Source of the DNA: an uncultured Flavobacteriales bacterium | Lineage (GTDB): Bacteria > Bacteroidota > Bacteroidia > Flavobacteriales_D > Parvicellaceae | Assembly (NCBI GenBank): GCA_913030835.1 | Contig: CAJWDP010000014.1 | Coordinates: 1-63,670 of the forward strand | Direction: 5' to 3' | DNA length: 63,670 nucleotides | In this document: positions 19,975-36,934 of the stretch, piece by piece | How positions within the stretch are numbered: position 1 is the stretch's first letter | Layout of the letters: every line of letters starts with the position of its first letter | The notes under the pieces: model-generated | Database searches by the model: none | What the model was told of the DNA's origin: nothing | The model's input: only the letters and a program-made list of their open reading frames with translations | Made by a program: the position numbers and the translations under genes

Positions 19975-20000
19975 GGCGCGTGTGTTTAAAGTGATCTGAT

Positions 20001-20029
20001 CAAACGTTTAATGGCTAGTGTATGTTCAA
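20001..20029 (-). promoter_or_regulatory. Candidate Bacteroidota promoter for the UnbV operon
   Basis: On the minus strand TTG (20029-20027), an 18-nt spacer and AACGTTTG (20008-20001), 7 of 8 matches to TAnnTTTG counting the free positions. The predicted start site would give a leader of about 20 bases before the ATG at 19974. Confidence 0.4.
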
Positions 20030-20113
20030 GATATTAAATTGAAGTCGAATTGTCCAATTGTTAACCATGGATTTGACTGTAGAACTGATGATTTACTTGA
20101 ATTTGTATTGAAA

Positions 20114-20143
20114 TTGTGTTGGATTACAGCTGCTATTTATTTG
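20114..20143 (+). promoter_or_regulatory. Candidate promoter for the 20228-21488 gene pair
   Basis: TTG (20114-20116), a 19-nt spacer and TTTATTTG (20136-20143), one mismatch from TAnnTTTG. The spacing fits; the leader would be about 80 bases long. Suggestive only. Confidence 0.3.
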
Positions 20144-20227
20144 TAGGAAGGAAGAATTTTACAATAAATTAGGGTGGATTGAAACCTGCAGGTCATGTGT
20201 TTATGAAATTCTAACGAAATTAGTCGG

Positions 20228-20620
20228 GTGAAATCATTGCTTGCAAAATTAGTAGTGCCAACAATCCTAATTATTGTTGCAGGGTGCCAATTCTATTGCT
20301 CTACCTATTTCAATTTGTCGAACTGGAAAGGAGGTGGGTTCGGTATGTATTCGGAAATTCACTGTTTTATCAGCCGGCAGGTGTGGTTTCAATCGGATTC
20401 GGGCTATGTCAATCTAGGCAAGGGAGCTGAAAATTACAAGTATGGAATGCATCTTAAGAAGTTGAGAATTTTCCCAACTGATGCAAAGCTGGCAGAGCTT
20501 GCTAAAGAATTAAGAAAGGACAAAAACTTGGACACGGTTCGACTGCAATTATGGGAGCTGGATTATGACATAAAATCGGGAGCGCTGAAAAGAAAAAAAA
20601 TTGTTGAAAATGCTTATTAA
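20228..20620 (+). CDS. Small exported protein with GGGFGMY motif
   Basis: A 130-residue protein starting at GTG 20228. The N-terminal hydrophobic stretch ends in VAGCQF (Cys 20), a plausible lipobox, though it could also be a single membrane anchor. The mature part has the phrase WKGGGFGMYSE, which I associate with small proteins encoded beside HTTM-like membrane proteins; the match is from memory and not checked. A charged C-terminal domain follows (AKLAELAKELRKDKNLDTVRLQLWELDYD). The next gene starts inside its last codons, so the two are translationally coupled. Confidence 0.65.
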   Translation: MKSLLAKLVVPTILIIVAGCQFYCSTYFNLSNWKGGGFGMYSEIHCFISRQVWFQSDSGYVNLGKGAENYKYGMHLKKLRIFPTDAKLAELAKELRKDKNLDTVRLQLWELDYDIKSGALKRKKIVENAY

Positions 20621-21488
20621 ACCAATAAATATGACATTGGACTCCTTTCTTGGTCGATCCAAGTATTATCAAACTTGTGTCCTGCTGTTTGTCTTTTTGG
20701 TGGTGTCATTAACGAAGAGTCACTTTTCGTATCATCTGATCAGTTTTCCGTTGATAGCTGTATCCATAGGATCTCTGCTGGTCAAGTTTGATCTGACCAA
20801 GAATAAGGTCTTCTGGGTTTCCATTCTTTTATTGCTCTTATTGAATGTTTTACAGGATTGGACAATGCCGGCTAATCACGATTATTTGTTGATTTATTTC
20901 ATATCAATTGTATTGCTCAGCTCATCCTCAGATGCATCAATTTCAGATGCACGCTTGGAGACCCATTCGCTGATTCTATTTGTGCTCACTTTTTGTCTGG
21001 CAGGTTTACAGAAACTGCTTTCTCCACAATTTATTGACGGCTCGTATTTAAGCTACGCTTACCATTCCGGGCATTTTACGCCTTTCCTGTTGAATAAGAT
21101 TGCTTTCTTCAATGAGTCATTTCAAAACAATCAGGAGATACTTAAGGAATTGATGCAATCTGATCCAAATTTGGAAAAGGTCTCTACGCTCGGATACCGC
21201 ATTGCCAGTTCTGAATCCTTTTTCAAATACCTGTCCTGGACAGTAGTCTTGGTGGAATTCATTATTGGGGTACTGGCTATTTTCTTTAGGAAATCAAAGG
21301 TCTTTTTATGGTTGGTACTGGCGTTTTGCACATTGGTTTTCTTGGCAAGACCGGAAGGGTTTGTTTGTGTAATGCTCATCTTAGTTTGGCCTCACCTTCC
21401 AGAGAAAAAAGGCAAGATCCATTACGCATATTTGTTGGTCATGATTTTGATCTTAGCCATGATCGTGCTAAACAAAGCATTCAGATAG
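20610..21488 (+). CDS. Polytopic membrane protein
   Basis: About 292 residues from ATG 20610, which overlaps the end of the preceding gene; an upstream TTG at 20601 and ATG 20631 are alternatives. I count seven or eight hydrophobic segments (for example VLLFVFLVVSL, FWVSILLLLLLNVL, LLIYFISIVLL, LILFVLTFCLAGLQKLL, TVVLVEFIIGVLAIFF, FLWLVLAFCTLVFL, YAYLLVMILILAMIVL). The AGLQKL phrase followed by DGSYLSY resembles HTTM (vitamin K carboxylase-like) membrane domains, but catalytic residues are not visible. Function unknown; it probably works with the coupled exported protein. Confidence 0.6.
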   Translation: MLIKPINMTLDSFLGRSKYYQTCVLLFVFLVVSLTKSHFSYHLISFPLIAVSIGSLLVKFDLTKNKVFWVSILLLLLLNVLQDWTMPANHDYLLIYFISIVLLSSSSDASISDARLETHSLILFVLTFCLAGLQKLLSPQFIDGSYLSYAYHSGHFTPFLLNKIAFFNESFQNNQEILKELMQSDPNLEKVSTLGYRIASSESFFKYLSWTVVLVEFIIGVLAIFFRKSKVFLWLVLAFCTLVFLARPEGFVCVMLILVWPHLPEKKGKIHYAYLLVMILILAMIVLNKAFR

Positions 21489-21536
21489 AGTTCTGTAAAA
21501 TGACACTGTTTAATCCATGGCTAGCAGTGAAAAAAT

Positions 21537-23432
21537 TCACCTCAACAGAACCACTTTTCCTGTTACCCATTGTTTCCCTACAGGATATCGAAGGAGATAA
21601 ATACCTACGGGATAATCTCCCAGATACAATGTGGCCTTGTGGCTGTTGTTTAAGTCTACTTTTTGCAGAACTTTTCCAGAGATATCGGTAAGGAATATAA
21701 AATCGATTCCTTCGGAGCTTTCTACAGTTACGTAGTCTCGAGTTGGATTCGGATAGTATTTCCATTCAAAATAATTGGGATCATTTTCTGTTGACCAAAC
21801 CGGGTTAGTGTCAAGAGTATCGTTTGTAATTTCCGAAAGAGAGTCCGAGCTGCTTGGCTCAATGCAGATCTGTCCTGATTCCGAAGTAAATGCAACAAGA
21901 CTGTCAGGATAGTCTACGTCGTATTCAGGTTCTTCTTTGTCGCATTCGGGGTAGTAGATATTTGCCTTGATAATGCTGCTTAGTCTTTCAGTTAATAATT
22001 CGATTTCATATTCATCGATGGTGGGTTCAATATGAGAAGATCCGATTCCGCTATGATCGGTTAAAAACAGGTACGTTCCATTGGTGCATAATGCTAGTGA
22101 CCTCATTAGATATTCACCTGATTTATTGATTCCACTTCCTGATATAGGAATTATTTTAATTCCCTTTTTGGCTGCTTCTGTGGCCAAACGTTGAAGTCTT
22201 TCGATATTGTGGTCTTTATTGTGAGCGGGGGCATCAAGAATTAGAAACAACAATTTGCTTCTGGTGTTTTCACTCCAGCTTAATTTGTGAATTGCGTCTT
22301 CCAGTCCGATATCAACAGCCTCCGGCATATCTCCACCTCCTTTGGCAAACTGATTATCTATAAACACAAGAGCTTCTGATAGCACGTTGGTGAAGTCTTT
22401 GTGTCTTGTCACATAGTCTTCGCTACTGTCCCGGTAAAAAACACTTCCGTATCGAATACGAACATCACTGTACATGTTTTGGGCGTCATACATTACCTTG
22501 TTTAAATCGCGCTTGATGAAATTTATTTCATCGCTCATGCTTCCTGTAGCGTCGACCACAAATGCAATCTCAACCAGGTTGTGTGCGCCGCAAGATTCCT
22601 CCAGCTGTATCGTGTTGATACCCTTTTTAAAGGGTTTAGGATTCCGAAGCTGTTTCTTGTTGCCTTGATAGTCCGCGACAATTTTATCCACAGCTTGTTG
22701 CTGACCATCAATCGATCCCCATAGCTCCGCTTTGCCTGAATTATCGGTTGTGGATTGCCAGATAATTTTGTTCGACTTGCCAAACAATTGAACTGTTGCT
22801 CCTACCAAAGGACTTTTATCGTAATTCAGGAGCTGAACCATATAACGTTGCTGAGGATTAAGCTTCCATGTTTTCTGATGCTCTAACAGTTCATCTTTTA
22901 AATAGTCGTTCCAGAGATTCCATTTTCCGAAGTCGTTGATCTCTCCGGCTGTTAGTCCTTTACCTGATTTTTCGGAACCGTTTTGCACATTTTTGTTGCT
23001 GAGGTAAATCCGTCCGTCTACAAAACCTGCTTCCATGGAATAAACCACTTCCGAAAGGCTCCGGGTTTCTTTGTATTTGTCTCGTTTTAATGAAAAGTCA
23101 CTTTCTTCCTCCCCTTTTATGGTTATTGATTCTTCTATAGGCTCATAACCGGCATACATGATTTTAATGTTGTATGTCCCACTATCTTCAAAGCTCAATT
23201 CATAATTTCCAAATTCATCCGTAAGAACAGACCCAACGAGGTTGTTGTCCTTATCGTAAGCTTCAACATTACCGTATTTCATTACTTTTTTAGATTCTGA
23301 CAGGCTACCTGATCGCTCGGATTCCACAGGGGCTTTAGCGGAATGAAGTTTTGCATTGCCTCGCAACGACTGTGACAAAGTAACGGAAGTTAGAATTGAA
23401 CATAGGAGTACTGAAAGGATCGTTGTTTTCAT
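21537..23432 (-). CDS. Secreted vWA-domain protein with T9SS type A sorting domain
   Basis: About 631 residues from ATG 23432. After a signal peptide (ending TLSQ) there is a carboxypeptidase regulatory-like beta-sandwich (about 35-110, VGSVLTDEFGNYELSF, NIKIMYAGYEPIEE), a second similar segment (VGATVQLFGKSNKII, about 200-250), then a von Willebrand factor A domain with the metal site DATGSMSDE (about residue 285) and GGGDMPEAVD. The C terminus is a T9SS type A domain (YYPNPTRDYVTVES, GKVLQKVDL, GIYLLRYP). Secreted and probably surface-attached; the vWA domain suggests a protein partner. It converges with 20610-21488. Confidence 0.88.
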   Translation of the reverse strand: MKTTILSVLLCSILTSVTLSQSLRGNAKLHSAKAPVESERSGSLSESKKVMKYGNVEAYDKDNNLVGSVLTDEFGNYELSFEDSGTYNIKIMYAGYEPIEESITIKGEEESDFSLKRDKYKETRSLSEVVYSMEAGFVDGRIYLSNKNVQNGSEKSGKGLTAGEINDFGKWNLWNDYLKDELLEHQKTWKLNPQQRYMVQLLNYDKSPLVGATVQLFGKSNKIIWQSTTDNSGKAELWGSIDGQQQAVDKIVADYQGNKKQLRNPKPFKKGINTIQLEESCGAHNLVEIAFVVDATGSMSDEINFIKRDLNKVMYDAQNMYSDVRIRYGSVFYRDSSEDYVTRHKDFTNVLSEALVFIDNQFAKGGGDMPEAVDIGLEDAIHKLSWSENTRSKLLFLILDAPAHNKDHNIERLQRLATEAAKKGIKIIPISGSGINKSGEYLMRSLALCTNGTYLFLTDHSGIGSSHIEPTIDEYEIELLTERLSSIIKANIYYPECDKEEPEYDVDYPDSLVAFTSESGQICIEPSSSDSLSEITNDTLDTNPVWSTENDPNYFEWKYYPNPTRDYVTVESSEGIDFIFLTDISGKVLQKVDLNNSHKATLYLGDYPVGIYLLRYPVGKQWVTGKVVLLR

Positions 23433-23479
23433 AATTAGATTGTTGTTTATGAAAGTCCAATACAAGCCAGAATAGAAAA

Positions 23480-23504
23480 GGTTCATTTCAGAATTTATTG
23501 AACC
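23480..23504. promoter_or_regulatory. Inverted repeat between divergent genes
   Basis: GGTTCA and TGAACC separated by 13 nt in the 117-base space between the divergent vWA gene and the 23550 gene. It could be an operator serving both or a chance palindrome; no promoter box is convincing here. Confidence 0.2.
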
Positions 23505-23549
23505 GATTTGTCCGGCACTTGTACGGTGTGGGAAATAAATTATACGATT

Positions 23550-24461
23550 ATGAAATCTAGAACTAAATTATTCGCAATACTTATTGCAGTTGGAACATTA
23601 ATTCCTACAGGATTGGTTGCGCAGTACAACAAATGCGCAGCAAAAAACATTGTTACTGAAACAGTGGAAGAAACCTACATTAACGATGAAACCGGGATAG
23701 AAGAGGTCAGGAGAGTAGAAAAAGAAGTAGCTTCAGATGGCTTCGGAAATGCGCAAGGAAACCAGTATGATCTTGCTGTAGATGGAGCTTTTGAAGGTCA
23801 GACCATCGCTGTTCTCCATTTTTATACCGCTGGGTTTGATTTTTCTTTACCGAAAAATGCGTTGGCAGAAAAGGGATTTTCCGTGTACCGTTGGATGAAC
23901 AAAGCTCCCGACCCAAAAGAATTGGAAAAAGCGTTGGATAAGTCTTGTCAGCTATGGATCATTTCGGACAGTAGGCAACATTTGAATGACGGCCACCTGG
24001 AGGTGATCAAGAAATTTTTCAATAGCGGAAAAGGAGTTTACATCTGGGGTGATAATCAACCCTATTATGCAGATGCCAATTACGTTTCAAAAGCATTGAT
24101 CGGGGTGGAGATGTCCGGGAACCTGCATGGTAATAAAGTTGTGAATCTACAAATGGAAGAGAAAAAAGCGGGTGTTATGCCGAATCACCTCATTACAACA
24201 GGACTCCAACATGTATACGAGGGTATTACAATTGCCACTCTTTCAGAAAGTAAAGATCTCACACCGATCATTTATGGATCTGCAAATAATCTGGTAACCG
24301 GGGTGTACGAAAAGGACGGAAAAAGGCTAATACTGGACGGAGGATTTACACGGTTGTATTGCAATTGGGATACAGCAGGTACCGGCAGGTATGTGAAAAA
24401 TGCGGCTGCATGGTTGGTCAATTATGAGAGATTTGGAGATAAGGTAGTATCTAACCAATAG
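23550..24461 (+). CDS. Exported protein with glutamine amidotransferase-like fold
   Basis: About 303 residues from ATG 23550, with a signal peptide (KLFAILIAVGTLIPTGLVAQ). The mature part has alternating strands and helices, AVLHFYTAGFDF, KSCQLWIISDSRQHL, FFNSGKGVYIWGDNQPYY, KRLILDGGFTRLY, NAAAWLVNYERFG, resembling class I glutamine amidotransferase-like (ThuA- or BPL_N-like) domains. The nucleophile Cys seen in true amidotransferases is absent at the GKGVYIWGDN turn, so it is probably non-catalytic. Specific function unknown. Confidence 0.6.
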   Translation: MKSRTKLFAILIAVGTLIPTGLVAQYNKCAAKNIVTETVEETYINDETGIEEVRRVEKEVASDGFGNAQGNQYDLAVDGAFEGQTIAVLHFYTAGFDFSLPKNALAEKGFSVYRWMNKAPDPKELEKALDKSCQLWIISDSRQHLNDGHLEVIKKFFNSGKGVYIWGDNQPYYADANYVSKALIGVEMSGNLHGNKVVNLQMEEKKAGVMPNHLITTGLQHVYEGITIATLSESKDLTPIIYGSANNLVTGVYEKDGKRLILDGGFTRLYCNWDTAGTGRYVKNAAAWLVNYERFGDKVVSNQ

Positions 24462-24563
24462 ACCAGGACTATCTACACAATTGATTTGTTTATCTTGGTT
24501 CTCCCGCGTTTAATGATTTGCTGAATTACCATTTCTTTGCGCGGGAGGAATCAAGGTTTGTGT

Positions 24564-25334
24564 ATGAAGGGGGTGGCCTGTATTTTCTATTGGATTTTAA
24601 GACGCAGATATCGTGTTCATATAGAAGGAATTGAGCGATTAAAAAAGTCAGGAGCTAAACTCTTATTGCCGAATCATCCTGCTCACATTGACCCACAGAT
24701 CCTAACGGCATTGGTTCGTTTGCATTGTGATTTTGTTCCGGTAGTTTCAGAGCAATTTGCGAATTTACCTTTCATTGGATATTTTATTCGAAGGCAAAAT
24801 GCGGTTGTGGTAAGCGATCTCAAATTTGGCAATAGAGACCCAAATGTGTTGAATACAATAGTCAGTGGAGTACTCAACGCTTTTGAAAATAATAAGAGCG
24901 TAATTATTTATCCGGCGGGAGGGATCAAACACACTTCCCATGAGGTAATAAAAAATAAACAATCAGTTCATGCAATCGTTGGGCAGTTGCCAGAGCATGT
25001 TACCATTTTGGGTGTTCGAATTCATGGATTATGGGGAAGTATGTGGTCGGTGGCGTGGAATGGTAAGAGGCCCAATTTTCTGTGGTGCATGACCAAAGGA
25101 ATTTTTTACTTCTTTCTCAATCTTGTTTTCTTTTTGCCGAAACGGAATGTACGCATCGAGTTTGTTGACATTACTACAGAAGTTCAAGGTATTGCGCACA
25201 TGGACAGACAGAATTTTAATTCCAAATTGGAAGAATTTTATAATGTAGCTGGTCCGGAAAAAGTGTGCTACCTAAAACACGGTTTCTTTTTTCCGAAACT
25301 AAGGAAAATGTACCCGGAAAATTTAACGGGGTGA
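24564..25334 (+). CDS. PlsC-like acyltransferase
   Basis: About 256 residues from ATG 24564 (a purine-rich GGGAGGA lies 15 bases before it and 9 bases before TTG 24558, so the latter is possible). It belongs to the 1-acylglycerol-3-phosphate acyltransferase superfamily: the catalytic NHPAHIDP block (HxxxxD form, about residues 37-44), the second block IIYPAGGIKHTS in place of FPEGTRS, and a hydrophobic FFLNLVFFLPKRN span near residue 185. It transfers an acyl chain to a membrane lipid at the inner membrane. The exact acceptor (lysophosphatidate or another lipid) is not readable. Confidence 0.8.
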   Translation: MKGVACIFYWILRRRYRVHIEGIERLKKSGAKLLLPNHPAHIDPQILTALVRLHCDFVPVVSEQFANLPFIGYFIRRQNAVVVSDLKFGNRDPNVLNTIVSGVLNAFENNKSVIIYPAGGIKHTSHEVIKNKQSVHAIVGQLPEHVTILGVRIHGLWGSMWSVAWNGKRPNFLWCMTKGIFYFFLNLVFFLPKRNVRIEFVDITTEVQGIAHMDRQNFNSKLEEFYNVAGPEKVCYLKHGFFFPKLRKMYPENLTG

Positions 25335-25579
25335 CGTTGATTTGTGTGGAAGCAATTCATTTTGAATATGTGTGAAATTGTTGGAATGCTAAATGGGCAT
25401 TTTATTCTTGTGTAATACAAAACCAATAGCAGTAGTTCATGTCTTCCGGAAAATGTAATAGGAAATCTATTGAGTTATTAGTATGATCCTTAACATAGGC
25501 TATATCAGCACACAGAAGGAATTCTAAGGAAATATTCAGTATATTCGATGGCACCTAAAAAATTGAAAAACACACTTTT

Positions 25580-26374
25580 ATGAAAACAAAAACAATATTT
25601 AGCGCTGTGTTGATGATCGCCTTGTTGGCATCTTTCTCATCGTGCAGAAAAAAAGGATGTACAGATCCGAATAGCTTATCCTACAACCCTGAAGCAAAGA
25701 AGGACGATGGTTCATGCACCACACCAACGGCTATCAAAAAATCATTGGTGTTCAAGAAAACGGCTACATGGTGTCCGTATTGTGGGGATTGGGGAGCAAC
25801 ATATTCTTCGAATTTGGCGGCTGCTTATTCCAATTGCCAGGTAATTGAGCTTCATGGAGATATGCAAATGGAAACAGCTGTTGGAGACGCACTCATGGAT
25901 GCCTTGCCAAGTGCTGGGTGGCCTCACTTTTACTTAGGTACGGAAGACCTCCCAAATAGCTATTCGCAGATATCCAATTCTGTCAACACTCAATTGGGAG
26001 AGGCCGTTGAGGTTTCAATGGCGATGGAGAAAACGACAACCGGTTCAACCATGAATGTTAGGGTTCAGTCTCAATGGTTGGGTTCAACGTCAGGTGAATA
26101 TTTCCTTGCAGTTTATGTCTTGGAAAATGGAATCGTTGCTACCCAGCAAATCGATGGGGCTCCATCTGATCCGAATTTTGTTCACAATTATGTGCTAAGA
26201 GGAGAAGCGTCTAACTCGGCTTTCGGAAAGGCCATCACCATCAATGGGGAAGGCTATCTGGAGGAGTTTGACATTGCTTTAGGCAGCGGTATGGTTGCAG
26301 CAAATTGTTATCCGGTAGCAGTGATGTGGAAGAGAAACGGCTCTACATATGACTTTGTAAACTTTGTGAAGTAG
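25580..26374 (+). CDS. Omp28-like lipoprotein with thioredoxin-like WCPYC site
   Basis: A 264-residue lipoprotein (lipobox FSSC, Cys 22). Behind a short Cys-containing linker (KGCTDPNSLSYNPEAKKDDGSC, a calcium-binding-like loop) is a thioredoxin-like domain with TATWCPYCGDWG, a CxxC redox motif, and WPHFYLG in place of the cis-proline loop. The rest is beta-rich, as in Omp28-type outer membrane lipoproteins of Bacteroidota. A periplasmic or surface thiol-disulfide role is possible. It is followed by a terminator at 26401 and stands alone. Confidence 0.82.
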   Translation: MKTKTIFSAVLMIALLASFSSCRKKGCTDPNSLSYNPEAKKDDGSCTTPTAIKKSLVFKKTATWCPYCGDWGATYSSNLAAAYSNCQVIELHGDMQMETAVGDALMDALPSAGWPHFYLGTEDLPNSYSQISNSVNTQLGEAVEVSMAMEKTTTGSTMNVRVQSQWLGSTSGEYFLAVYVLENGIVATQQIDGAPSDPNFVHNYVLRGEASNSAFGKAITINGEGYLEEFDIALGSGMVAANCYPVAVMWKRNGSTYDFVNFVK

Positions 26375-26400
26375 AGCAACCGATTTACAAAATAGTAAGG

Positions 26401-26436
26401 AAGGGTAGGGCCGTAGGGTCTTACCCTTTTTATTTT
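26401..26436 (+). terminator. Rho-independent terminator after the Omp28-like gene
   Basis: The arms AAGGGTA (26401-26407) and TACCCTT (26422-26428) close a hairpin directly followed by a T-rich stretch (TTTTATTTT). It lies 27 bases after the stop of the lipoprotein gene. Confidence 0.8.
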
Positions 26437-26570
26437 CCAAAAGACGAACTTACTAGTCTAATCTTCTAAGGTTTTCAATCAATCACTATTCATATTGTGA
26501 TCACTTAACTTTGAAAGAATTTTCAGAATTTCTCTGCTTTTTATCAGAATAGGATTTGTCAATTAAGCAT

Positions 26571-26578
26571 TAGATTTG
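26571..26578 (+). promoter_or_regulatory. Candidate -7 box (TAGATTTG) for the GT87 gene
   Basis: Exact match to TAnnTTTG, 7 bases before the TTG start codon at 26586, so the transcript would be nearly leaderless. No TTG stands at the expected -33 distance. Confidence 0.3.
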
Positions 26579-26585
26579 CACTGAT

Positions 26586-27767
26586 TTGAACAAACTATCC
26601 TCGAACCGATACCGTCAGATTGTGCCCATAGTTTTGGTGCTTTCCGCAATAGGAATCAGCCTTCAGGTGTACAACAGACCCCCAAGAATATCGGAGGAAA
26701 CGGTATTTACCCACTACAACAATTACCTCATTTTTAAGAATTCCTTTTTTCATCTGCTTGAAGGTTTAAATCTGTACACGGCATACCCTTCTGAAGTTTG
26801 GGATTTGTATAAGTACAGTCCTGCGTTCAGCCTGTTCATGGGAATCATGGCCTGGATGCCGGATTGGGCCGGGCTTATTTTTTGGAATTTACTCAATGTA
26901 ATGGTCCTGTATTTTGGCGTAAAGAATTTTGATTTTAAGTCGAATAGAATTCAACTGTTCTTTTGGTTTTTCGTTTTTTTAGAACTGCTAACCTCTATGC
27001 AAAACTCCCAATGCAACATCATGATCATTGGGTTGTTCATGCTGGCATACAAAGCATTTAGCCGAGAACAAGTAGGTAAGGCGGCACTGTTCCTTACCCT
27101 CACCGTTTTTATAAAATTATTCGGCATTGTAGCATTTTCTTTGTTCTTGATCTATCCTAAAAAAATCAAATTCCTTCTGTACAGTGCTATGTATTTGATT
27201 CTATTTGCTTTCATTCCGATTGTGATAACCGGTTGGGATGGATTGATCTGGCAATACCAGAACTGGTGGGAAATGTTGGCGAATGACCATTCAGCTTCTT
27301 CAGGACTTTCTGTAATTGGGTGGATCGAATCTTGGTTTGGTTTGAGTCCGAATAAAATGATCATTGTCGGAGTTGGCGCTTTGTTATTTTTATTGCCTTT
27401 GCTCAACTTCAGAGCATACAAAGATTCGAGGTTCCGGGCAATGCTTTTGGCGAGTGCGTCCTTGTGGGTAGTTATATTCAATCACAAAGCAGAATCAGCT
27501 ACTTTTATTATCGCTGTGGTAGCTGCGTACATTTGGTTTTCGCATTCAAAACGGGGATGGTTGGAAATTGGATTACTCATTTTCTGTTTCATTTTCACCG
27601 TGCTGTCACCAACGGATCTTTTCCCGCGAGTTTGGAGAGAAGGTTTTGTCGTGCCGTATGTTATGAAGGCGGTGCCTTGTATCTTCATATGGATCGCAGT
27701 GGTTATTGATATGATCAGATTGAAAGTCGAGAATAAAACGTCCGAAGCTGTCGCGGATTTAATTTGA
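26586..27767 (+). CDS. Glycosyltransferase family 87 / DUF2029 membrane protein
   Basis: A 393-residue polytopic protein, about nine to ten spans, of the GT-C fold DUF2029/GT87 family (polyprenyl-phosphate-sugar-dependent mannosyltransferase relatives). Family signs are the periplasmic loop with PSEVWDLYKYSPAFSLFMG, the QNSQCNIMIIGLFMLAY block and FIKLFGIVAFSLFL. It starts at TTG 26586 directly after an in-frame TGA at 26583; no ATG precedes the first span. It lies upstream of the ilv leader but is separated from it by about 80 bases and a separate promoter, so it is not part of that operon. Sugar and acceptor unknown. Confidence 0.8.
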   Translation: MNKLSSNRYRQIVPIVLVLSAIGISLQVYNRPPRISEETVFTHYNNYLIFKNSFFHLLEGLNLYTAYPSEVWDLYKYSPAFSLFMGIMAWMPDWAGLIFWNLLNVMVLYFGVKNFDFKSNRIQLFFWFFVFLELLTSMQNSQCNIMIIGLFMLAYKAFSREQVGKAALFLTLTVFIKLFGIVAFSLFLIYPKKIKFLLYSAMYLILFAFIPIVITGWDGLIWQYQNWWEMLANDHSASSGLSVIGWIESWFGLSPNKMIIVGVGALLFLLPLLNFRAYKDSRFRAMLLASASLWVVIFNHKAESATFIIAVVAAYIWFSHSKRGWLEIGLLIFCFIFTVLSPTDLFPRVWREGFVVPYVMKAVPCIFIWIAVVIDMIRLKVENKTSEAVADLI

Positions 27768-27820
27768 ACAATCATTTTTAGGTTTTTGCAGGAAAGAATT
27801 TTAAAAAAACACACAAACGC

Positions 27821-27851
27821 TTGGTTTTTTTAAAAAAAAGAAGAAACATTT
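27821..27851 (+). promoter_or_regulatory. Candidate promoter of the ilv operon
   Basis: TTG (27821-27823), a 20-nt spacer and AACATTTG (27844-27851), one mismatch from TAnnTTTG. The predicted start of transcription is about 27855-27858, only a few bases before the first leader peptide ATG at 27859, so that leader may be translated from a nearly leaderless transcript. Confidence 0.45.
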
Positions 27852-27858
27852 GCGGCGC

Positions 27859-27921
27859 AATGAAAAGAAGAAACAACATGCTGTCTATTATTGAGATCGG
27901 GGCGATTAGCCAACGACAATG
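27859..27921 (+). CDS. First ilv leader peptide (20 residues)
   Basis: A 20-codon frame ATG to TGA with Leu-Ser-Ile-Ile-Glu-Ile-Gly-Ala-Ile, four Ile codons in eight positions. The stop is followed at once by the antiterminator strand (27922-27930). Position and structure fit a ribosome-stalling leader; the peptide itself probably has no other role. Codon enrichment is weaker than in the second leader. Confidence 0.65.
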
Positions 27922-27977
27922 AGGATGGTTTGCAAAAAAATAGATTTGAAACCATCCGAAAAGGATGGTTTTTTTTT
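27922..27977 (+). terminator. First ilv attenuator: mutually exclusive antiterminator and terminator
   Basis: Strand 2 (27922-27930, GGATGGTTT) and strand 4 (27963-27971, GGATGGTTT) are identical and both complementary to strand 3 (27948-27956, AAACCATCC). Pairing 3:4 makes a 9-bp stem with a 6-nt loop and a run of T to 27977, a terminator. Pairing 2:3 blocks it. A ribosome halted at the Ile codons leaves strand 2 free; one that finishes at the stop codon covers strand 2 and lets the terminator form. Confidence 0.8.
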
Positions 27978-27992
27978 GACTAAAATTTAGGA

Positions 27993-28055
27993 GTGAATTA
28001 CTTTTTGAACAACATAATTATCATCGTCATTATTATTTCTGCTTCGTTGGAGTGA
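27993..28055 (+). CDS. Second ilv leader peptide, Ile-rich (20 residues)
   Basis: A 20-codon frame starting at GTG 27993 (or at TTG 28005) that reads NNIIIIVIIISASLE at its end: seven Ile and one Val in eight consecutive codons. An in-frame stop at 27981 sets the 5' limit. The stop codon TGA (28053-28055) overlaps the antiterminator strand. This is a textbook Ile-responsive attenuator leader; GTG rather than ATG is the main uncertainty. Confidence 0.85.
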   Translation: MNYFLNNIIIIVIIISASLE

Positions 28056-28115
28056 GACTGGGATGATACTATAATATACCGAAGCCCTTCTCACACTGAG
28101 AGGGGCTTTTTTTTT
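28052..28115 (+). terminator. Second ilv attenuator: antiterminator and terminator
   Basis: Terminator: AGCCCTTCTC (28083-28092) with GAGAGGGGCT (28098-28107), 10 pairs including one G-U, loop of 5, then nine T (28107-28115). Antiterminator: GTGAG (28052-28056) plus GGG (28060-28062) can pair with CTCAC (28090-28094) and CCC (28085-28087), which removes the 5' arm of the terminator. The first strand overlaps the leader stop codon, as expected for translation-coupled attenuation. ilvE starts 20 bases after the T-run. Confidence 0.85.
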
Positions 28116-28134
28116 GAATTAAAACAAGATAAAT

Positions 28135-29025
28135 ATGTATTACAACGAAAAGACAACCATTTTTTTAGATGGTAAATGGATCAAAGCAACAGATGCCCGA
28201 GGAGGGCTGTATTCCCAGACGCTCCACTATGGATCGGGAGTATTTGAGGGCATACGATCATATAAAACAGAGGATGGTCCGAAAATATTTAAAGCAAAAG
28301 AGCATTTTGAAAGGTTGCATTATTCGGCAGAAAAAATGCACATAACACTGCCGTATTCAACGGAAGAGCTTACTCGGTTGAGTTATGAATTATTGGAGCG
28401 TAATGAGCTTGAAAATGCCTATTTAAGACCGTTGGTTTTTCTTGGGGAAAACATGGCATTACGTGCAACAGCCGAAACACATGTGCTGCTTTGCGCCTGG
28501 AATTGGAATCGATACTTAGGAGATCATCAATTATCTGTAATGACCTCTTCTTTTCAACGTCCTAACCCGAGGTCGTGTTTTGTAGATGCCAAGGTGACTG
28601 GGCACTATACGAACTCAATATTGGCTACGGAAGAGGCGAAACGCAAAGGATATGATGAAGCGCTTTTACTGGATATGAATGGCTTTGTGGCTGAAGGACC
28701 CGGAGCCAATTTCTTTTTCGAAAAGGATGAAGTGTTGTATACCGCGCCTCTTGGAAATATACTATCAGGAATAACCAGACAAACCATATTTGAGCTATGT
28801 GCGGAGCTGAATATACCTGTGGTTGAAAAGCTCTTTACACCAAAGGAGGTGTATGAAGCAGACGGTGCATTCTTCACCGGAACAGCAGCAGAAGTAGCAG
28901 CCATCAAGAGTCTGGACGGAAACAACTTCAATCTTTCTTGGGAAGAAACTCTTGGAAGCCAGCTATCATCTGCGTATTTGAATCGTGTGCAAAAAAAGGA
29001 ATACAAACTATTTGAACTGGTATAA
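28135..29025 (+). CDS. ilvE: Branched-chain amino acid aminotransferase
   Basis: A 296-residue fold-type IV PLP enzyme catalysing the last step of Ile, Val and Leu synthesis. Visible blocks: [11 protein letters not shown], the PLP lysine region [41 protein letters not shown] and the [13 protein letters not shown] cofactor-phosphate block. First gene of the ilvEDBNCA operon behind the double attenuator. Length normal. Confidence 0.95.
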
Positions 29026-29026
29026 C

Positions 29027-30703
29027 ATGGAACTGAATAGATACAGTAAGCGAGTTACGCAAGACGATTCTCAACCGGCAGCGCAAGCCATGCTTCATGC
29101 CATAGGTCTGACAAGACAGGATCTAAGCAAACCGTTTGTAGGAATTGCAAGCACCGGCTATGAAGGAAATCCTTGCAATATGCATTTGAATGAGCTGGCA
29201 AAAAAAGTAAAAGAAGGAACTAAAAATCAGGACATGGTCGGCTTGATTTTTAATACGATTGGAGTCAGTGATGGAATTTCGATGGGTACACCCGGCATGA
29301 GGTTTTCATTACCGTCACGAGACATCATAGCAGATTCAATGGAAACTGTAGTCGAAGGAATGTCCTACGATGGATTGGTTACCGTGGTCGGTTGTGATAA
29401 GAACATGCCTGGAGCTTTAATGGCAATGCTTCGTGCCAACCGACCGGGAATATTGGTGTATGGCGGCACGATAGAATCCGGATGTCATAATGGACAGAAG
29501 CTGGATGTTGTTTCGGCATTTGAAGCCTGGGGGAAGAAAAATGTAGGCAAAATCGACAATGCCGAGTATCAAAATGTAATCGAAAAGGCGTGCCCCGGAG
29601 CTGGTGCTTGTGGCGGTATGTATACCGCCAATACGATGGCTTCAGCAATAGAGGCGTTAGGGATGTCATTGCCTTATAATGCTTCCAATCCTGCATTGAG
29701 TGAGCAAAAAAAGGTAGAAAGTGTATCGGCCGGAGAGGCGGTTAAACAACTGTTGCAATTGGATCTCAAGCCGAAAGATATCGTGACTAAAAAGTCCATA
29801 GAAAATGCAGTTCGATTGGTAACTGTATTGGGAGGATCCACAAATGCAGTATTGCACTTTCTGGCCATAGCACATGCTGCTGATGTAGAATTTACGCTAA
29901 AGGATTTTGAAAGGATATCAGAATCAACACCGTATTTGGCTGATCTGAAGCCTAGCGGAAAATATTTGATGGAGGATGTCCATGATGTTGGAGGTATCCC
30001 TGCTGTGCTGAAATACATGTTGGACAATGGTTTATTGCACGGTGATTGCATGACCGTTACGGGCAAAACGCTATCCGAGAATCTAAGCTCTGTTCCGGGA
30101 TTAAAAAAGGGACAACAGGTGATCAAATCGGTCAATAAGCCCTTAAAATCAACAGGTCATTTGCGCATATTACGAGGAAATTTATCACCCGAGGGTGCGG
30201 TTGCAAAGATCACAGGAAAAGAGGGGTTGAAGTTTACCGGTAAAGCAAAAGTATTCGATTCAGAGTGGGAAGCCAATGATGGGATCAAAGCAGGAGCTGT
30301 GGAAAAGGGCCATGTGGTGGTTATCCGCTACGAGGGTCCAAAAGGAGGACCCGGTATGCCGGAAATGCTGAAGCCAACAGCCGCGTTGGTAGGTGCAGGT
30401 CTGGCAAATGACGTAGCCCTGATCACAGACGGTCGATTTTCAGGAGGTTCCCATGGTTTTGTTGTTGGTCATGTTTCTCCCGAAGCCCATACTGGTGGAC
30501 CACTGGCATTGGTAAAAGATGGCGATACCATTACGATAGATGCAGTATTAAATACCATCACACTTGCCGTGTCAGATACAGAGCTGCGCGAAAGAAGAAG
30601 AAGCTGGAGTGAGCCGGCGGATAAATTCACTAGAGGAGTATTGTACAAATATGCCAAAAGCGTATCGTGTGCTTCTCGAGGATGTGTAACGGATCAGTAT
30701 TAA
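29027..30703 (+). CDS. ilvD: Dihydroxy-acid dehydratase
   Basis: About 558 residues from ATG 29027, one base after the ilvE stop. An iron-sulfur dehydratase making 2-oxo acids for Ile and Val. Cluster-binding cysteines are in GCDKNMPG (around residue 120) and [17 protein letters not shown] (around 190); the C-terminal [21 protein letters not shown] block is intact. The open frame extends into ilvE, but only the later start matches the family ([11 protein letters not shown]). Confidence 0.96.
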
Positions 30704-30715
30704 ATAAAGAGAGAA

Positions 30716-32440
30716 ATGGAAACTTTAGAAAAGCAGATAACGAAGACAAAAAATAAAACAATGACCGGTGCACAAGCGGTTGTTCAGTCTTTAATAGAGG
30801 AGGGGGTTGACCGGATCTTTGGTTACCCTGGAGGAGCGATCATGCCCGTTTACGATGCACTTTATGATGTAGAGGATAAGCTCACACATGTCTTGACTCG
30901 ACATGAGCAAGGAGCCACTCATGCGGCACAAGGGTATGCAAGGGCCACCGGAAAAACCGGAGTTTGTTTGGCGACTTCAGGTCCCGGAGCTACCAATCTC
31001 ATAACAGGAATCGCTGATGCTCAGATCGACTCCACTCCATTGGTGTGTATCACGGGTCAAGTAAAAAGCACGTTGCTTGGGTCAGATGCTTTTCAGGAAA
31101 CCGATGTGATCGGAATTTCCATGCCTGTGACCAAATGGAACTTTCAGGTAACCAAGGCAGCTGAAATACCGGAAGCGATTGCCAAGGCTTTTTACATAGC
31201 AAGATCAGGTAAGCCGGGTCCTGTACTTCTGGACATCACGAAGGATGCACAATTTGAAAAGGTTGATTTTGAGTACCAACCCTTTGTTTCGATGAGAAGC
31301 TATCAACCCGTTCCACTTGCGGATCATGTAAAACTCAAGCAAGCAGCAGAGCTGATCGATCAATCCAAGAGGCCTCTGGTTTTATTTGGGCAAGGATTAA
31401 TCTTGTCTAACGCCGAGGAAGAGTTTAAAACTTTCATAGAAAAAGCAGGTCTTCCGGCAGCTTGGACGATCATGGGACTTTCCGCATTGGATTCGGAGCA
31501 CCCACTCAATGTGGGAATGCTGGGAATGCACGGAAACTATGCACCAAATAAGCTAACCAATGAATGCGATGTGTTGATTGCCGTCGGGATGAGGTTCGAC
31601 GACCGAGTTACCGGGGATTTGAATCGTTATGCGAAACAAGCGAAGGTCATTCATCTCGAAATTGATCCGGCAGAAATCGACAAAAATGTAAAGACGGATG
31701 TAGCAATTTTGGGAGATGCGAAAGAAAGTTTGAAACAGCTGACTCGAATCATTAACCCTAATTCTCATTTCCAATGGCTGAAGCGTTTTAGAACATTGGA
31801 AAAAGAAGAATATGAAGTTGTGATAAACAAGGAATTGAATCCCGATTCTGACCAGCTGAGTATGGGAGAAGTTGTTCACTGCATCAATGAACGCAGTGAT
31901 GGCAAGAGTGTTATCGTAACTGATGTCGGCCAACATCAAATGGTGGCGTGCAGGTATGCCCGATTCAGAAAGAGCAAATCCATGATCACTTCCGGTGGTC
32001 TGGGGACTATGGGCTTTTGCTTGCCTGCTGCAATTGGCGCTAAAATGGGTGCGCCGGAAAAACAAGTAATCGCTATTGTAGGCGATGGTGGGTTTCAGAT
32101 GACCATTCAAGAGCTTGGCACCATTTTTCAAAATGACGTTCCTGTTAAGATCGTATTACTGAATAACGAGTTTCTCGGGATGGTCAGGCAGTGGCAGGAG
32201 CTGTTTTTTGAAAAACGTTACGCTTCAACGCACATGGTCAATCCCGATTTTCAGACCATCGTTTCAGGTTACAACATAAAATCAAGATTGGTGGAGGATC
32301 GATCTGAGCTGAAAGATGCTGTTCAGGAAATGCTGGATTCCAAGGAGTCTTTTTTCTTGGAAGTTCGAGTAGGGAAAGAGAACAATGTTTTTCCGATGGT
32401 GCCAACAGGCGCATCGGTTTCAGAAATACGACTTAAATAA
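30716..32440 (+). CDS. ilvB: Acetolactate synthase, large (catalytic) subunit
   Basis: A 574-residue thiamine diphosphate enzyme that condenses pyruvate with pyruvate or 2-oxobutyrate. The glutamate block RIFGYPGGAIMPVYDAL, the FAD-site RHEQGATHAAQGYARATGKTGV, and the thiamine-binding GDGGFQMTIQELGTIFQNDVPVKIVLLNN are all intact. ilvN follows after one base, so subunits are probably made in a fixed ratio. Confidence 0.96.
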   Translation: METLEKQITKTKNKTMTGAQAVVQSLIEEGVDRIFGYPGGAIMPVYDALYDVEDKLTHVLTRHEQGATHAAQGYARATGKTGVCLATSGPGATNLITGIADAQIDSTPLVCITGQVKSTLLGSDAFQETDVIGISMPVTKWNFQVTKAAEIPEAIAKAFYIARSGKPGPVLLDITKDAQFEKVDFEYQPFVSMRSYQPVPLADHVKLKQAAELIDQSKRPLVLFGQGLILSNAEEEFKTFIEKAGLPAAWTIMGLSALDSEHPLNVGMLGMHGNYAPNKLTNECDVLIAVGMRFDDRVTGDLNRYAKQAKVIHLEIDPAEIDKNVKTDVAILGDAKESLKQLTRIINPNSHFQWLKRFRTLEKEEYEVVINKELNPDSDQLSMGEVVHCINERSDGKSVIVTDVGQHQMVACRYARFRKSKSMITSGGLGTMGFCLPAAIGAKMGAPEKQVIAIVGDGGFQMTIQELGTIFQNDVPVKIVLLNNEFLGMVRQWQELFFEKRYASTHMVNPDFQTIVSGYNIKSRLVEDRSELKDAVQEMLDSKESFFLEVRVGKENNVFPMVPTGASVSEIRLK

Positions 32441-32441
32441 A

Positions 32442-32981
32442 ATGATGATGAAAAAGAGATTTACAGTTTCAGTATTTACAGAGGATATAGTGGGCATCCT
32501 GAATCGTGTTACAATTGTGTTCACCCGTCGAAAGATCAATATTGAAAGTATTGCGGCTTCTGAAAGTGAAATTGATGGGATACACAGATACACGATTGTC
32601 GTGAGTGAATCAGAGGAGCTCGTTCGTAAGGTGGTTCTTCAGCTAGAGAGGCAAGTTGAGGTCTTAAAAGCGGTGTATCACAAGGATGATGAGGTGATCT
32701 ATCAGGAAATCGCCTTGTATAAAGTGCCGACAAATGTGCTTGCAGGTGGAGGTGAAGCGGAAAAAATTGTCCGTTCCCATTTTGCTCGAGTTTTAACGGT
32801 TGAACCGGATTTCACTGTACTCGAAAAAACAGGACACCATTCAGAAACTCAGCTTTTGTTCGAGGAGCTGGAACCGTATGGAATCCTTGAGTTTGTTCGA
32901 TCAGGAAGGATCGCGATCACCAAACCGATGAGAACACTGAGGTCGATAGTTAATGAATTAGAATTAAATAATACAAATTGA
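32442..32981 (+). CDS. ilvN: Acetolactate synthase, small (regulatory) subunit
   Basis: About 179 residues from ATG 32442 (two further ATG codons follow at once). An N-terminal ACT domain ([37 protein letters not shown]) that in the family senses valine or isoleucine, and a C-terminal ALS-associated domain ([21 protein letters not shown]). It activates and gives feedback control to IlvB. Confidence 0.95.
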
Positions 32982-32983
32982 AA

Positions 32984-34462
32984 ATGAAAAATTACTTTAA
33001 TACGCTCAGCAGGGAGCAACAGAAAGAAGAATTAGGCAAATGTGAATTTTTAGGTTTTGATGAATTCACTAAAGGAGTGGAAGAGCTGACAGGGAAGAAG
33101 ATTGTGATTGTTGGATGCGGTGCGCAAGGTCTGAATCAAGGGCTCAACATGAGAGATTCCGGTCTAAATGTGTCCTATGCACTCAGAAAATCTTCATTGC
33201 ATGAACGAAACACTTCGTTTATCAATGCAATGAGCAATGGTTTTGAATGTGGTGATTTTGGGCAAATGATACCACAGGCAGATCTGGTTGTTAACCTAAC
33301 ACCAGACAAACAACATACTCCTGTTGTTTCCGCGGTTGTACCATTAATGAAAAAAGGCGCAACCTTGTCTTATTCGCACGGGTTCAACATTGTGGAGGAA
33401 GGTGTCCAAATACGACAAGATATCACGGTGATCATGGTTGCTCCAAAGTCGCCCGGATCGGAGGTGCGAAGGGAATTTGAAAGGGGGTTTGGCGTCCCGA
33501 CATTAATTGCAGTGCACCCGGAAAATGATCCTGAAGGTAAAGGTCTTGAATTGGCAAAATCATACGCTGTCGCAATTGGCGCACATCGGGCCGGAGTGTT
33601 ATTGTCCTCATTCACCGCAGAAGTTAAATCGGATTTGATGGGAGAGCAGACCATATTGTGTGGGGTGTTACAGTCGGCTTCTGTTTTGCTATTCGATAAA
33701 ATGGTAGCAGAAGGTGTAGAGCCTTCATATGCGTCCAAGTTCATGCAGTTTGGATGGGAGGCAATTACGGAAGCGTTGAAGCATGGAGGCATTTCAGGCA
33801 TGATGAATCGACTCTCGGAACAAGCGCAGCTCGAAGCCTATCGACTTTCTGAAGAATTAAAAATGCGGATGACTAATTTATTCAATACCCATATGGAGGA
33901 GATCTTGTCCGGAACATTTTCGGAGAACATGATGAAGGACTGGAGAGATCATGATGCGAAATTACTTGGGTGGAGATCGGCTACTGCGAAAACCCCGTTT
34001 GAAAAAGCGGTGAATACAGATCAACACATAGCGGAAGATGAATTTTTCCAGAATGGAACTCTAGTGGTTGCATTCATAAAAGCAGGTGTTGAGCTGGCTT
34101 TTGACGTAATGGTAAGCAATGGTATAAAGGAGGAATCTGCATACTATGAATCGTTGCATGAGCTGCCGCTGATTGCGAATACGATCGCCCGTAAAAAGCT
34201 CTACGAAATGAACAGAATCATATCCGATACAGCGGAATATGGGTGTTACCTGTTTGATCATGCATGTCAGCCATTGATTGCAGATTTTGTCGCAAAAGCG
34301 AATCCCGATACGATTGGGAGACCATTAGAAGAATTCGAATACAATGAAGCTGAGCTACAGATGGTAAGAGAGGCGGTCATTAATCATCCGATAGAAAAGG
34401 TCGGTAAAAAATTGCGCGATGCCATGAAAGAAGAAAGTCGCCGAGAATTACAAATGACATGA
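32984..34462 (+). CDS. ilvC: Ketol-acid reductoisomerase, class II
   Basis: A 492-residue long-type enzyme as in enterobacteria, converting acetolactate to dihydroxy-isovalerate with NADPH and magnesium. The nucleotide loop is [34 protein letters not shown]; the duplicated KARI C-domain carries the metal ligands ([14 protein letters not shown] and, later, [11 protein letters not shown]). ATG 32984 is chosen over the TTG at 32978 that overlaps ilvN. Confidence 0.95.
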
Positions 34463-35709
34463 AACAGCTAATCCCAATAAAAGCAATAGAAAAAGCTGCA
34501 TCGAATATACGTGATGTGGCTTTTGAAACCCCGTTGATGTTCAATCTCAATCAATCTCAAAAATGGGGTGCCAATGTATATTTTAAACGAGAAGATCTGC
34601 AGCAGGTCAGGTCCTATAAAATACGAGGGGCGTATAACAAAATAAGCGCTTTAACGGCTGCGGAATTAAATAGAGGTGTGGTTTGTGCAAGCGCGGGTAA
34701 TCACGGTCAGGGAGTTGCCTTGTCTTGCTCAAGAAAAAAGGTACATGGAGTCATTTTTATGCCGGTTCCTACTCCAAAACAAAAGGTGGAACAGGTCAAA
34801 ATGTTTGGGGGCTCATTTGTGGAAGTAATTCTATCCGGTGATACATTCGATGATGCTTATGAAGCAGCATTGGAGCATTGTGAATCGGAAGGTCTGACGT
34901 TCATTCATCCATTTGATGATGAGAAGGTGATCGAAGGGCAGGGGACAATTGGATTGGAGCTATTGAAACAGTCTAAATCTACAATTGACTATTTGTTTGT
35001 TCCAGTTGGTGGGGGAGGTTTAGCAGCCGGAATTGTCAGTGTCTTCAGTAAATTATCTCCGGAAACAAAAATCGTTGGAGTTGAACCTGCTGGTGCACCT
35101 TCCATGTCATCGGCAGTTTCTGCAGGAAAAACGGTTCGACTTGAGCAGATTGATAAGTTCATAGATGGGGCTTCGGTTCAACAGGTGGGAGAAACGAACT
35201 TTCAAATCTGCAGAAATACGTTACACAATATGGTAACCGTAGAGGAAGGAAAGGTATGTCAAACCATTTTAGACCTCTACAATCGAGACGCCATGGTCGT
35301 TGAGCCCGCAGGTGCAATGTCTGTTGCTGTATTGGAAAAGTACAAGGCGGAGCTTGTGGGGAAAACGGTAGTTTGTTTGATCAGTGGAAGCAATAATGAT
35401 GTTACCAGAACGGAAGAGATCAAAGAGCGTGCGCTATTGCATGCAGGCTTGAAGCATTATTTTATCGTTAGGTTTCCTCAGCGAGCCGGGGCTTTGAATT
35501 CTTTTATACGAAATGTACTTGGTGAACGAGATAACATTACTCATTTTGAGTATTCCAAAAAGCACAATCGAAATTCCGGACCTGCGGTAGTAGGAGTGGA
35601 GCTGGAAGAAGCGTCTGACCTAACCGGTCTGAAAAAGAGGATGAAAGAGTACAATTTTTTTGGAGAGTACCTAAACGATAAACCCGATTTATTTGAGTTC
35701 TTGGTGTAA
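34459..35709 (+). CDS. ilvA: Threonine ammonia-lyase (biosynthetic)
   Basis: A 416-residue PLP enzyme giving 2-oxobutyrate, the first step to isoleucine. The PLP lysine is in [12 protein letters not shown] (about residue 53); the phosphate loop [11 protein letters not shown] is clear. The C terminus has a single ACT-like regulatory domain ([18 protein letters not shown]), the shorter Bacillus-type layout. The start overlaps the ilvC stop as ATGA. It ends the operon; no obvious terminator was found in the 39 bases before the convergent VOC gene. Confidence 0.95.
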
Positions 35710-35748
35710 TCGTTAGGAAACTAATTTCTGGACAAGCAATCCACCCGT

Positions 35749-36822
35749 TCAGTTGTTGCGGAAGTTTTTAACTCGCTTCAGCTGCATTGCTTTGATCATC
35801 CAATTCGGAACAGGTTGTAAGGGGTCTCTTTTATTCAAATTGAGGTTCAAACCAATGGGTTTGATAACAGGAATTTTATGAGTTTCCACAAATTCGATCA
35901 GTGTTCCATCGCAATCTTCGATGTACCCCCAATGTCCGTTTGCGTCTCCCATATCGAAAGAGTCTGGGCTGATTACTTTAAAAGGAAAACCTTTGTCCTC
36001 ACATTCCTGAATTAGTGCTTTCATATTACGAATGTCAAAGCACAGATGTATGAATCCAATGTCTCCCCAATATCTGTTTTCGAAAATCTTCTTGGGTTGC
36101 TTGTCCAAACATTGGATCAACTCGAGTTCGCTCGGTCCGAATAGCCTGCTGAGTCCGCCGATTCGGTTGTTTTTGTGCGTTAGCAATACCCTTCGGAATT
36201 TGCTGTTACCGTTGGGTAGTCCGTCAAAGTCTTTAAATACAGAAGTTTCGTCATACACAACCTGATCATAACCGAGTATATCGGAATACAACGCCAAGGA
36301 AGATTCAATGTCGGATACACCTATGGAACACCCATATATGCCGCCGACATCTTTGCCATTGTTGGCGTACCAAACGTCGGACTCTTTAATCTTCAGAACA
36401 TTCCCGTAAGGGTCTTCCAAATAAAAGCTCCTTTTGTTATCCGGTTCCGTGATAATTTCGGTGAGTACCTTGTCTTTCAGATTTTTGATTCGTTGGAAGG
36501 AAGCTTCAATATCTCTGGATTTGATGAAGGCACAATTGATCCCCAAGTCACCGATTTGAATTTTGGATTCGGGTTTTACGGGTGTTCGGTCTAGGTATTG
36601 CCAGATTTCGTAACCGCTACCACCTTCTAGATTCATGGCAAGTATGGCCCTTTTTTCATGGGGAGCTCCACCCATATATGGCGCCATGTAGGTTGCTGTA
36701 TTGTTGTCATCAAATACAGGAACATCTGAACCCAATCGGGTAGCATACCATTCAAACGCTTTCTCGGCATCATCAACACCAACACCGATCTGCTGTATGC
36801 CATAAATTAATTTTTCTTCCAT
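35749..36822 (-). CDS. VOC (glyoxalase/dioxygenase superfamily) protein, two modules
   Basis: About 357 residues from ATG 36822. Two vicinal oxygen chelate modules: residues about 6-145 (IQQIGVGVDDAEKAFEWYATRLG, FYLEDPYGNVLKI) and about 155-320 (IYGCSIGVSDIESSLALYSDILGY, IGFIHLCFDIRNMK, GYIEDCDGTLIEFVETHK). Metal ligands H and E are visible in the second module (IHLCFD, LIEFVE), so that one may be catalytic. It resembles 4-hydroxyphenylpyruvate dioxygenase-type and glyoxalase proteins but cannot be assigned a substrate. Confidence 0.75.
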   Translation of the reverse strand: MEEKLIYGIQQIGVGVDDAEKAFEWYATRLGSDVPVFDDNNTATYMAPYMGGAPHEKRAILAMNLEGGSGYEIWQYLDRTPVKPESKIQIGDLGINCAFIKSRDIEASFQRIKNLKDKVLTEIITEPDNKRSFYLEDPYGNVLKIKESDVWYANNGKDVGGIYGCSIGVSDIESSLALYSDILGYDQVVYDETSVFKDFDGLPNGNSKFRRVLLTHKNNRIGGLSRLFGPSELELIQCLDKQPKKIFENRYWGDIGFIHLCFDIRNMKALIQECEDKGFPFKVISPDSFDMGDANGHWGYIEDCDGTLIEFVETHKIPVIKPIGLNLNLNKRDPLQPVPNWMIKAMQLKRVKNFRNN

Positions 36823-36934
36823 GTTTGTGAGCGAATGCGGCGACAAAGGTAATGGAAAAAGAGAGGATTAACTACTTTCTAATTAGCATACGCTCTGAAT
36901 TTTGTGGATTAAAAAGAGGCGCATTTTATCAGAC

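Follow-up and report, generated by a model that had tools for sequence, protein, structure and literature searches.

We analysed a stretch of 63,670 nucleotides from an uncultured Flavobacteriales bacterium, referred to here as the window. Its plus strand carries an operon of ilvE, ilvD, ilvB, ilvN, ilvC and ilvA, each gene with an NCBIfam match above the curated cut-off, and, judged by ilvE, Crocinitomicaceae and other Flavobacteriales MAGs are among its closest relatives. In the 275 bases before ilvE lie, as judged by their anatomy, two complete leader-peptide transcription attenuators in series, with the following features.

27821-27823, plus strand: TTG, 21 nt upstream of the next feature, which we take to be a putative -33 element
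27845-27852, plus strand: putative -7 promoter box, AACATTTG, a TAnnTTTG variant with a single mismatch, 7 nt ahead of the leader 1 ATG
27860-27922, plus strand: leader peptide 1, ATG start, MKRRNNMLSIIEIGAISQRQ followed by a stop codon; Ile at codons 10, 11, 13 and 16; relatives have homologous leaders
27897-27916, plus strand: predicted hairpin within the leader 1 codons, TCG-G-GGC-GATTA-GCC-AA-CGA, from the centroid fold
27923-27931, plus strand: unit 1 strand A, the 5' strand of the antiterminator, GGATGGTTT
27949-27957, plus strand: unit 1 strand B, the shared arm, AAACCATCC
27963-27971, plus strand: unit 1 strand C, GGATGGTTT, continuing into the T tract at 27969-27977
27993-28055, plus strand: leader peptide 2, GTG start (aligned with the ATG of relatives), MNYFLNNIIIIVIIISASLE followed by a stop codon
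28052-28062, plus strand: unit 2 strand A, GTGAGA-CT-GGG, overlapping the leader 2 stop codon, from the fold
28081-28115, plus strand: unit 2 terminator (strands B and C, hairpin 28081-28109) and its nine-T run (28107-28115)
28135-35709, plus strand: operon ilvE, ilvD, ilvB, ilvN, ilvC, ilvA

In each unit strand B can pair with either strand A, which lies at or after the leader stop codon, or strand C. The unit 1 strands A1, B1 and C1 are perfect nine-base partners, and terminator 1 (27949-27971) has a predicted energy of -12.3 kcal/mol and nine T; terminator 2 (28081-28109) has -19.6 kcal/mol and, again, nine T. The order leader 1, terminator 1, leader 2, terminator 2, proposed in the initial annotation of this DNA, is borne out by the coordinates, as is its count of seven Ile and one Val in eight codons of leader 2 (codons 8-15). 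The same annotation described identical nine-mers in unit 1; the repeat is real, with its first copy at 27923-27931 rather than 27922-27930, and is in fact a ten-mer (27922-27931 equals 27962-27971). The competition between A and C for the B arm also holds, strongly in unit 1 and in an interrupted, weaker form in unit 2. Leader 1 has four Ile codons and no Val, reaching at best five Ile/Val/Leu per 11 codons. At the position of its internal hairpin some relatives have, by eye, CGTAGC-AATTA-GCTACG, and the GTGAGA of unit 2 strand A is invariant or almost so in the unit 2 alignment of relatives.

We then compared these structures with shuffled sequence. Terminators 1 and 2 gave z-scores of -4.4 and -6.7, respectively, and antiterminator 1 gave -5.7. 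Antiterminator 2, with z -0.28, is unremarkable on its own and is the weakest part of the case. A terminator scan of positions 18000-37000 showed no overall excess, with 14 found against 15.5 expected; terminators 1 and 2 top the table for that interval.

Similarity searches with the window's ilvE yielded 158 non-redundant regions upstream of ilvE, from Bacteroidota and one neighbour, an uneven sample of the phylum. A repeat of the window (L001), a gene cut by a contig end (L010), three loci with less than 250 nt upstream and seven duplicates had been dropped. Close relatives that were not identical were retained, and the numbers of loci should therefore not be read as numbers of events. The regions were searched with a detector that requires a terminator with a T tract and a short ATG or GTG ORF with at least six Ile/Val/Leu in 11 codons; a looser threshold of five in 11 was needed for leader 1 of the window. 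In the 110.5 kb upstream of ilvE the detector found 169 units. The background, 1359 kb made up of the two strands of these loci, contained 14, and 331 kb of shuffled DNA contained none; relaxing the threshold changed these numbers to 180, 20 and 2. Several of the background hits sit opposite the ilv terminators. When extended to 15 amino acids and run over both strands of the whole window, the detector returned three attenuators, these two and one at his.

At the looser threshold 38 regions had at least two units. On inspection by hand we removed three, namely L063 and L142, whose upstream ORF resembles the end of an ATP synthase subunit, and L128, whose terminator was unconvincing. This left tandem units in 35 of the 158 regions, the window included, with one triple (L169), so the arrangement is not peculiar to this locus. 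The A:B helix beat shuffled sequence at p ≤ 0.05 in 28 of 36 upstream units, 9 of 35 downstream units and 66 of 106 single units. When A strands were swapped between loci, a unit's own A stood at or below the 0.05 percentile in 10/36, 7/35 and 12/106 cases, with median percentiles of 0.11, 0.18 and 0.28 (upstream, downstream and single, respectively). A unit's own A strand thus paired with its B only modestly better than those from elsewhere, a weak coevolution signal; A motifs are common to the loci, and the A region used was too short where A lies within leader codons.

We next imposed a ribosome footprint on the fold, both in the full-length RNA at equilibrium and in a nascent RNA that stops short of strand C. 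For a ribosome stalled on leader 1 with Ile codon 10, 11, 13 or 16 in its A site, the antiterminator had a predicted probability of 0.67, 0.86, 0.81 and 0.39, respectively, at full length, and of 1.00 in nascent RNA. A ribosome at codons 18, 20 and 21 gave terminator probabilities of 0.96, 0.96 and 0.97; with the stall at Ile 16 the terminator still had 0.58 in the full-length fold. In nascent RNA of unit 2 a ribosome at any of codons 8-15 gave an antiterminator probability of 0.94-0.99, and one at codon 18, 20 or 21 gave 0.00. At full-length equilibrium terminator 2 won at all ribosome positions tried (0.96-0.97), and unit 2 must therefore act kinetically. The alternation expected of a stalled ribosome is thus reproduced, with stalls at most Ile codons favouring the antiterminator and a ribosome at the stop codon the terminator, in unit 2 in nascent RNA only. 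Over the 177 units computed, the contrast between stalled and stop-codon ribosomes was at least two-fold in 36/36 upstream, 34/35 downstream and 102/106 single units.

A geometry test, assuming a 13-nt leading edge and a one-base tolerance, was applied to units with at least four A:B pairs (36/36 upstream and 32/35 downstream). In these, a ribosome left strand A free at 281 of the 299 Ile/Val codons of upstream units and at 264 of the 271 of downstream ones. Once at the stop codon, it covered half or more of the A:B pairs in 36/36 upstream and 31/32 downstream units. By the features that can be tested from sequence, both units of the window qualify as ribosome-mediated attenuators, the antiterminator of unit 2 being weak.

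The motif TAnnTTTG is given as the sigma-A -7 box, spanning -12 to -5, in a transcriptome account of Flavobacterium (PMC9723704). An exact match precedes 28 of the 35 first leaders of tandems and occurs between units in 2 of 36 cases, with a chance expectation of 0.05 per stretch of that length. Its rarity between units suggests that unit 2 is probably reached only via readthrough of terminator 1. With one mismatch allowed, the box precedes all 35 first tandem leaders and is also found between units in 18/36; because it is frequent there too, the window's own box is modest evidence for a promoter. Exact boxes precede 52 of 141 first or only leaders overall, and 24 of 106 among single units. 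In 23 of the 34 first leaders measured, the best box and the start codon were 4-10 nt apart, a distance at which leader 1 would be nearly leaderless.

We consider it about 85% probable that the locus carries two ribosome-mediated attenuators in series behind one promoter. Transcription would start a few bases before leader 1. When charged tRNA-Ile is plentiful, the ribosome would complete leader 1 and cover A1, and the B1:C1 hairpin would end transcription. A ribosome stalled at the Ile codons of leader 1 would instead allow A1:B1 to form, and RNA polymerase would continue into unit 2. There, a second ribosome would repeat the test on leader 2, with its Ile codons and one core Val, A2:B2 competing with B2:C2. 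Because the genes would be transcribed only with both gates open, the readthrough probabilities would multiply and the log-sensitivities to Ile supply would add. Two Ile attenuators in series had been the initial reading of this DNA, with the suggestion that the effects of the two gates might multiply or that the leaders might answer to different charge levels; the serial arrangement now finds support in the sequence, in the folds computed with a ribosome in place, in the geometry and in the conservation of both units in relatives.

The two units might, alternatively, read different signals, unit 1 mainly Ile and unit 2 Ile plus Val (Leu in other lineages), giving a two-amino-acid AND gate rather than an amplifier. 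In the window Val is indeed absent from leader 1 and occurs once in the core run of leader 2. Across the 35 tandem loci, and ignoring kinship, the last leader differs from the first by +1.06 Leu codons (Wilcoxon p 0.0009), +0.6 Ile (p 0.018) and -0.69 Val (p 0.019). Nevertheless, Ile is strictly the commonest of Ile, Val and Leu in 63 of 71 tandem leaders, and the near-identical duplicates of locus L123 carry the same codons. We therefore regard separate signals as possible though unlikely, and prefer two Ile attenuators in series.

A further alternative is that only unit 2 works, terminator 1 being the transcript end of the upstream gene or a decayed copy, and leader 1 a chance ORF. The low Ile content of the window's leader 1, with five Ile/Val/Leu in 11 codons, would fit this, as would the occurrence of unit 2 alone, as seen by the detector, in two loci of the window's clade (L003 and L004) and in one outside the tree (L011). 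We believe it to be improbable, given how well unit 1 is kept. The unit 1 alignment has 16 rows, namely the window, nine other tandem regions and six single loci of the unit 1 type (L016, L017, L100, L102, L104 and L105); pairs were counted by script anchoring, since MAFFT misplaces the window's B strand and the A strand of L015. The terminator core keeps 7/7 pairs in all 16 rows, so that the leader 1 hairpin, on whose conservation the initial annotation had staked its reading, is retained in relatives; the A:B core keeps 5 to 7 of 7 pairs. Unit 1 shows little variation, with one double-sided change (A-T in the window against G-C in the other 15 rows) plus G-U changes, and its covariation is accordingly thin. 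The double-sided change, occurring where A1, B1 and C1 remain perfect nine-base partners, and the promoter-like box 7 nt before leader 1 both argue for a working unit 1.

The neighbourhood of the units points the same way. Among 19 loci of the clade set, upstream proteins were shared in 10 of 171 pairs, each inside one close group, and the window shared its upstream protein with none of the 18 others, two of which had no upstream ORF to compare. Terminator 1 thus goes with ilv and not with a neighbouring gene. The window's 20-row clade (SH-aLRT 98) includes loci that have the pair, loci that have just unit 1 and loci that have just unit 2, and this mixed occurrence suggests an old pair with later losses. 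The same-genus genome G038 has no unit by the detector and one GTG-started unit by eye.

Although riboswitches and T-boxes also have terminator/antiterminator alternatives, the idea that one of these uses the two terminators, with the short ORFs incidental, can virtually be set aside, as there were no Rfam matches in the window at the gathering score and none over the units in 20 tandem loci, and the leader Ile codons are conserved in place. The only match in those 20 loci is a SAM-II riboswitch (63.2 bits; 2410-2468, minus strand) in L019, from an uncultured Ulvibacter MAG, about 100 bases beyond the upstream side of its units.

In an ilvE tree built from 118 rows that carry a unit, 32 of which have more than one, the distribution of single and multiple units needs at least 16 changes, gains or losses; this is a quick tree with many weak branches. 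Locus L123 (genome G567) has, 281 to 37 bases before ilvE, two units with 89% identity over 120 positions, which seem to stem from a recent tandem duplication. The units of L132 are 82% identical over 102 positions, and with such high identities in L123 and L132 tandem duplication is visible there. L169 (G246) has three Ile/Val attenuators 431 to 39 bases before ilvE, with the leaders MNKISIIPSIIIAIVIITFVAG, MKTVNNIIIINIIIRFTE and MKTNTIIIISIILICPSG, and its units 2 and 3 are 76% identical over 116 positions. In 26 of 36 neighbouring unit pairs, that of the window (65%) included, identity was no higher than the best of 50 shuffles. A search anchored on ilvD matched 128 of 296 genomes; among the matches listed, 29 loci besides the window comprised 21 with a single unit, 7 with none and 1 tandem, which was the L119 region again. 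Doubling is thus, among the ilvD matches listed, a feature of ilvE-first operons.

The predicted folds also differ between the two gates of the window when no ribosome is present. For unit 1 the antiterminator then has a probability of 1.00 in nascent RNA and 0.29 at full length, where the terminator has 0.67. For unit 2 it has 0.00, and the gate is predicted to be closed. It is conceivable, albeit doubtful, that the two gates of the window form a coincidence detector, the doubling elsewhere having arisen separately, up to a triple, as adjustable serial gain. If so, gate 1 would be open by default and shut only by a ribosome, probably after near-leaderless initiation, that completes leader 1, and gate 2 would be shut by default, a hairpin in the leader hiding strand A2, and opened only by a ribosome stalled on leader 2. 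The operon would then be on only with translation running and Ile short, and off when ribosomes are absent. Across the tandem loci the antiterminator fraction without a ribosome was higher in the first than in the last unit in 27 of 35 cases (Wilcoxon p 0.0004). When these were grouped by hand into 16 lineages, 7 went up, 6 went down and 3 stayed within 0.05 (p 0.30). We therefore dropped the default-open/default-closed pattern as a general rule and kept it only for the window's own clade, where 9 of 11 tandem loci have it.

Attenuation is a textbook form of RNA control, taught as one leader and one terminator. Single ribosome-mediated attenuators are described for trp, his, ilvGMEDA, ilvBN, leu, thr and pheA (PMC1183508). 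The units described here resemble these in having a leader ORF with codons for the product, alternative hairpins, an intrinsic terminator and an operon of the same pathway downstream; they differ in that two complete units stand in series, leader 1 is probably almost at the 5' end, and the promoter box is of Bacteroidota type. The nearest precedent for the doubled form, and the sole one that we found in print, is Salmonella mgtCBR, where one leader contains two short ORFs, each governing a structural switch, and the signals, ATP and proline, are presented as independent and additive (PMC3641672). The serial arrangement of two short ORFs, each with its own switch, is common to both systems. According to the same source, the mgtCBR stem-loops do not look like intrinsic terminators; here each unit has an intrinsic terminator and a leader that reads Ile codons.

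The tandem riboswitches of Bacillus clausii metE (PMC3641672) likewise place two complete units, each with sensor and terminator, one after the other, and contiguous riboswitches and T-boxes are on record (PMC12452182). Tandem riboswitches sense by direct RNA binding; here the sensor would be the translating ribosome. Leader-peptide attenuation is noted in transcriptomes of Flavobacterium psychrophilum (PMC9723704) and Bacteroides thetaiotaomicron (PMC7366714), both from the same phylum, the former with leader peptides upstream of amino acid operons. In excerpt, these two accounts describe no doubled units. The open-licence literature matches listed, a set outside which subscription papers mostly fall, included none on a doubled attenuator ahead of an amino acid operon. 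Rfam release 15 gave no match over these units in 21 sources (the window and the 20 tandem loci). The units thus appear to be a recurrent regulatory RNA without an Rfam release 15 match, with similar doubled, and once tripled, switches in related bacteria.

The same operon with one, two or three units across the phylum, some apparently freshly duplicated, amounts to a natural experiment. What a second gate adds might be greater sensitivity, a reduced basal level or a test for ongoing translation. Quantitative predictions come from the sensitivity theory of attenuation (PMC1183508); under its definition of log-sensitivity we would expect serial gates to add.

The amino acid context of the genome bears on what is controlled. 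One family search each, in the draft assembly of the window's own genome, found neither a homoserine dehydrogenase nor a LeuA dimer domain, which makes Leu unlikely as the controlled product here. The presence of ilvA and the ilv operon without these two may reflect auxotrophy for Thr and Leu, Ile being made from Thr that the cell takes up. A single his attenuator lies before hisG on the minus strand of the window (48386-48272), with the leader MKTTQLHHHHSHTCAQARG, a terminator, and the box TATATTTG just upstream; the genome thus seems to use leader-peptide control, singly at his. Similar His leaders precede hisG at L172, L173 and L174, that is, in all three other genomes with hisG among the 13 searched. 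An ORF at 43972-45069 on the minus strand combines a histidinol-phosphatase-like N-terminal part with an imidazoleglycerol-phosphate dehydratase-like part, and we take it, by appearance, to be a hisB fusion.
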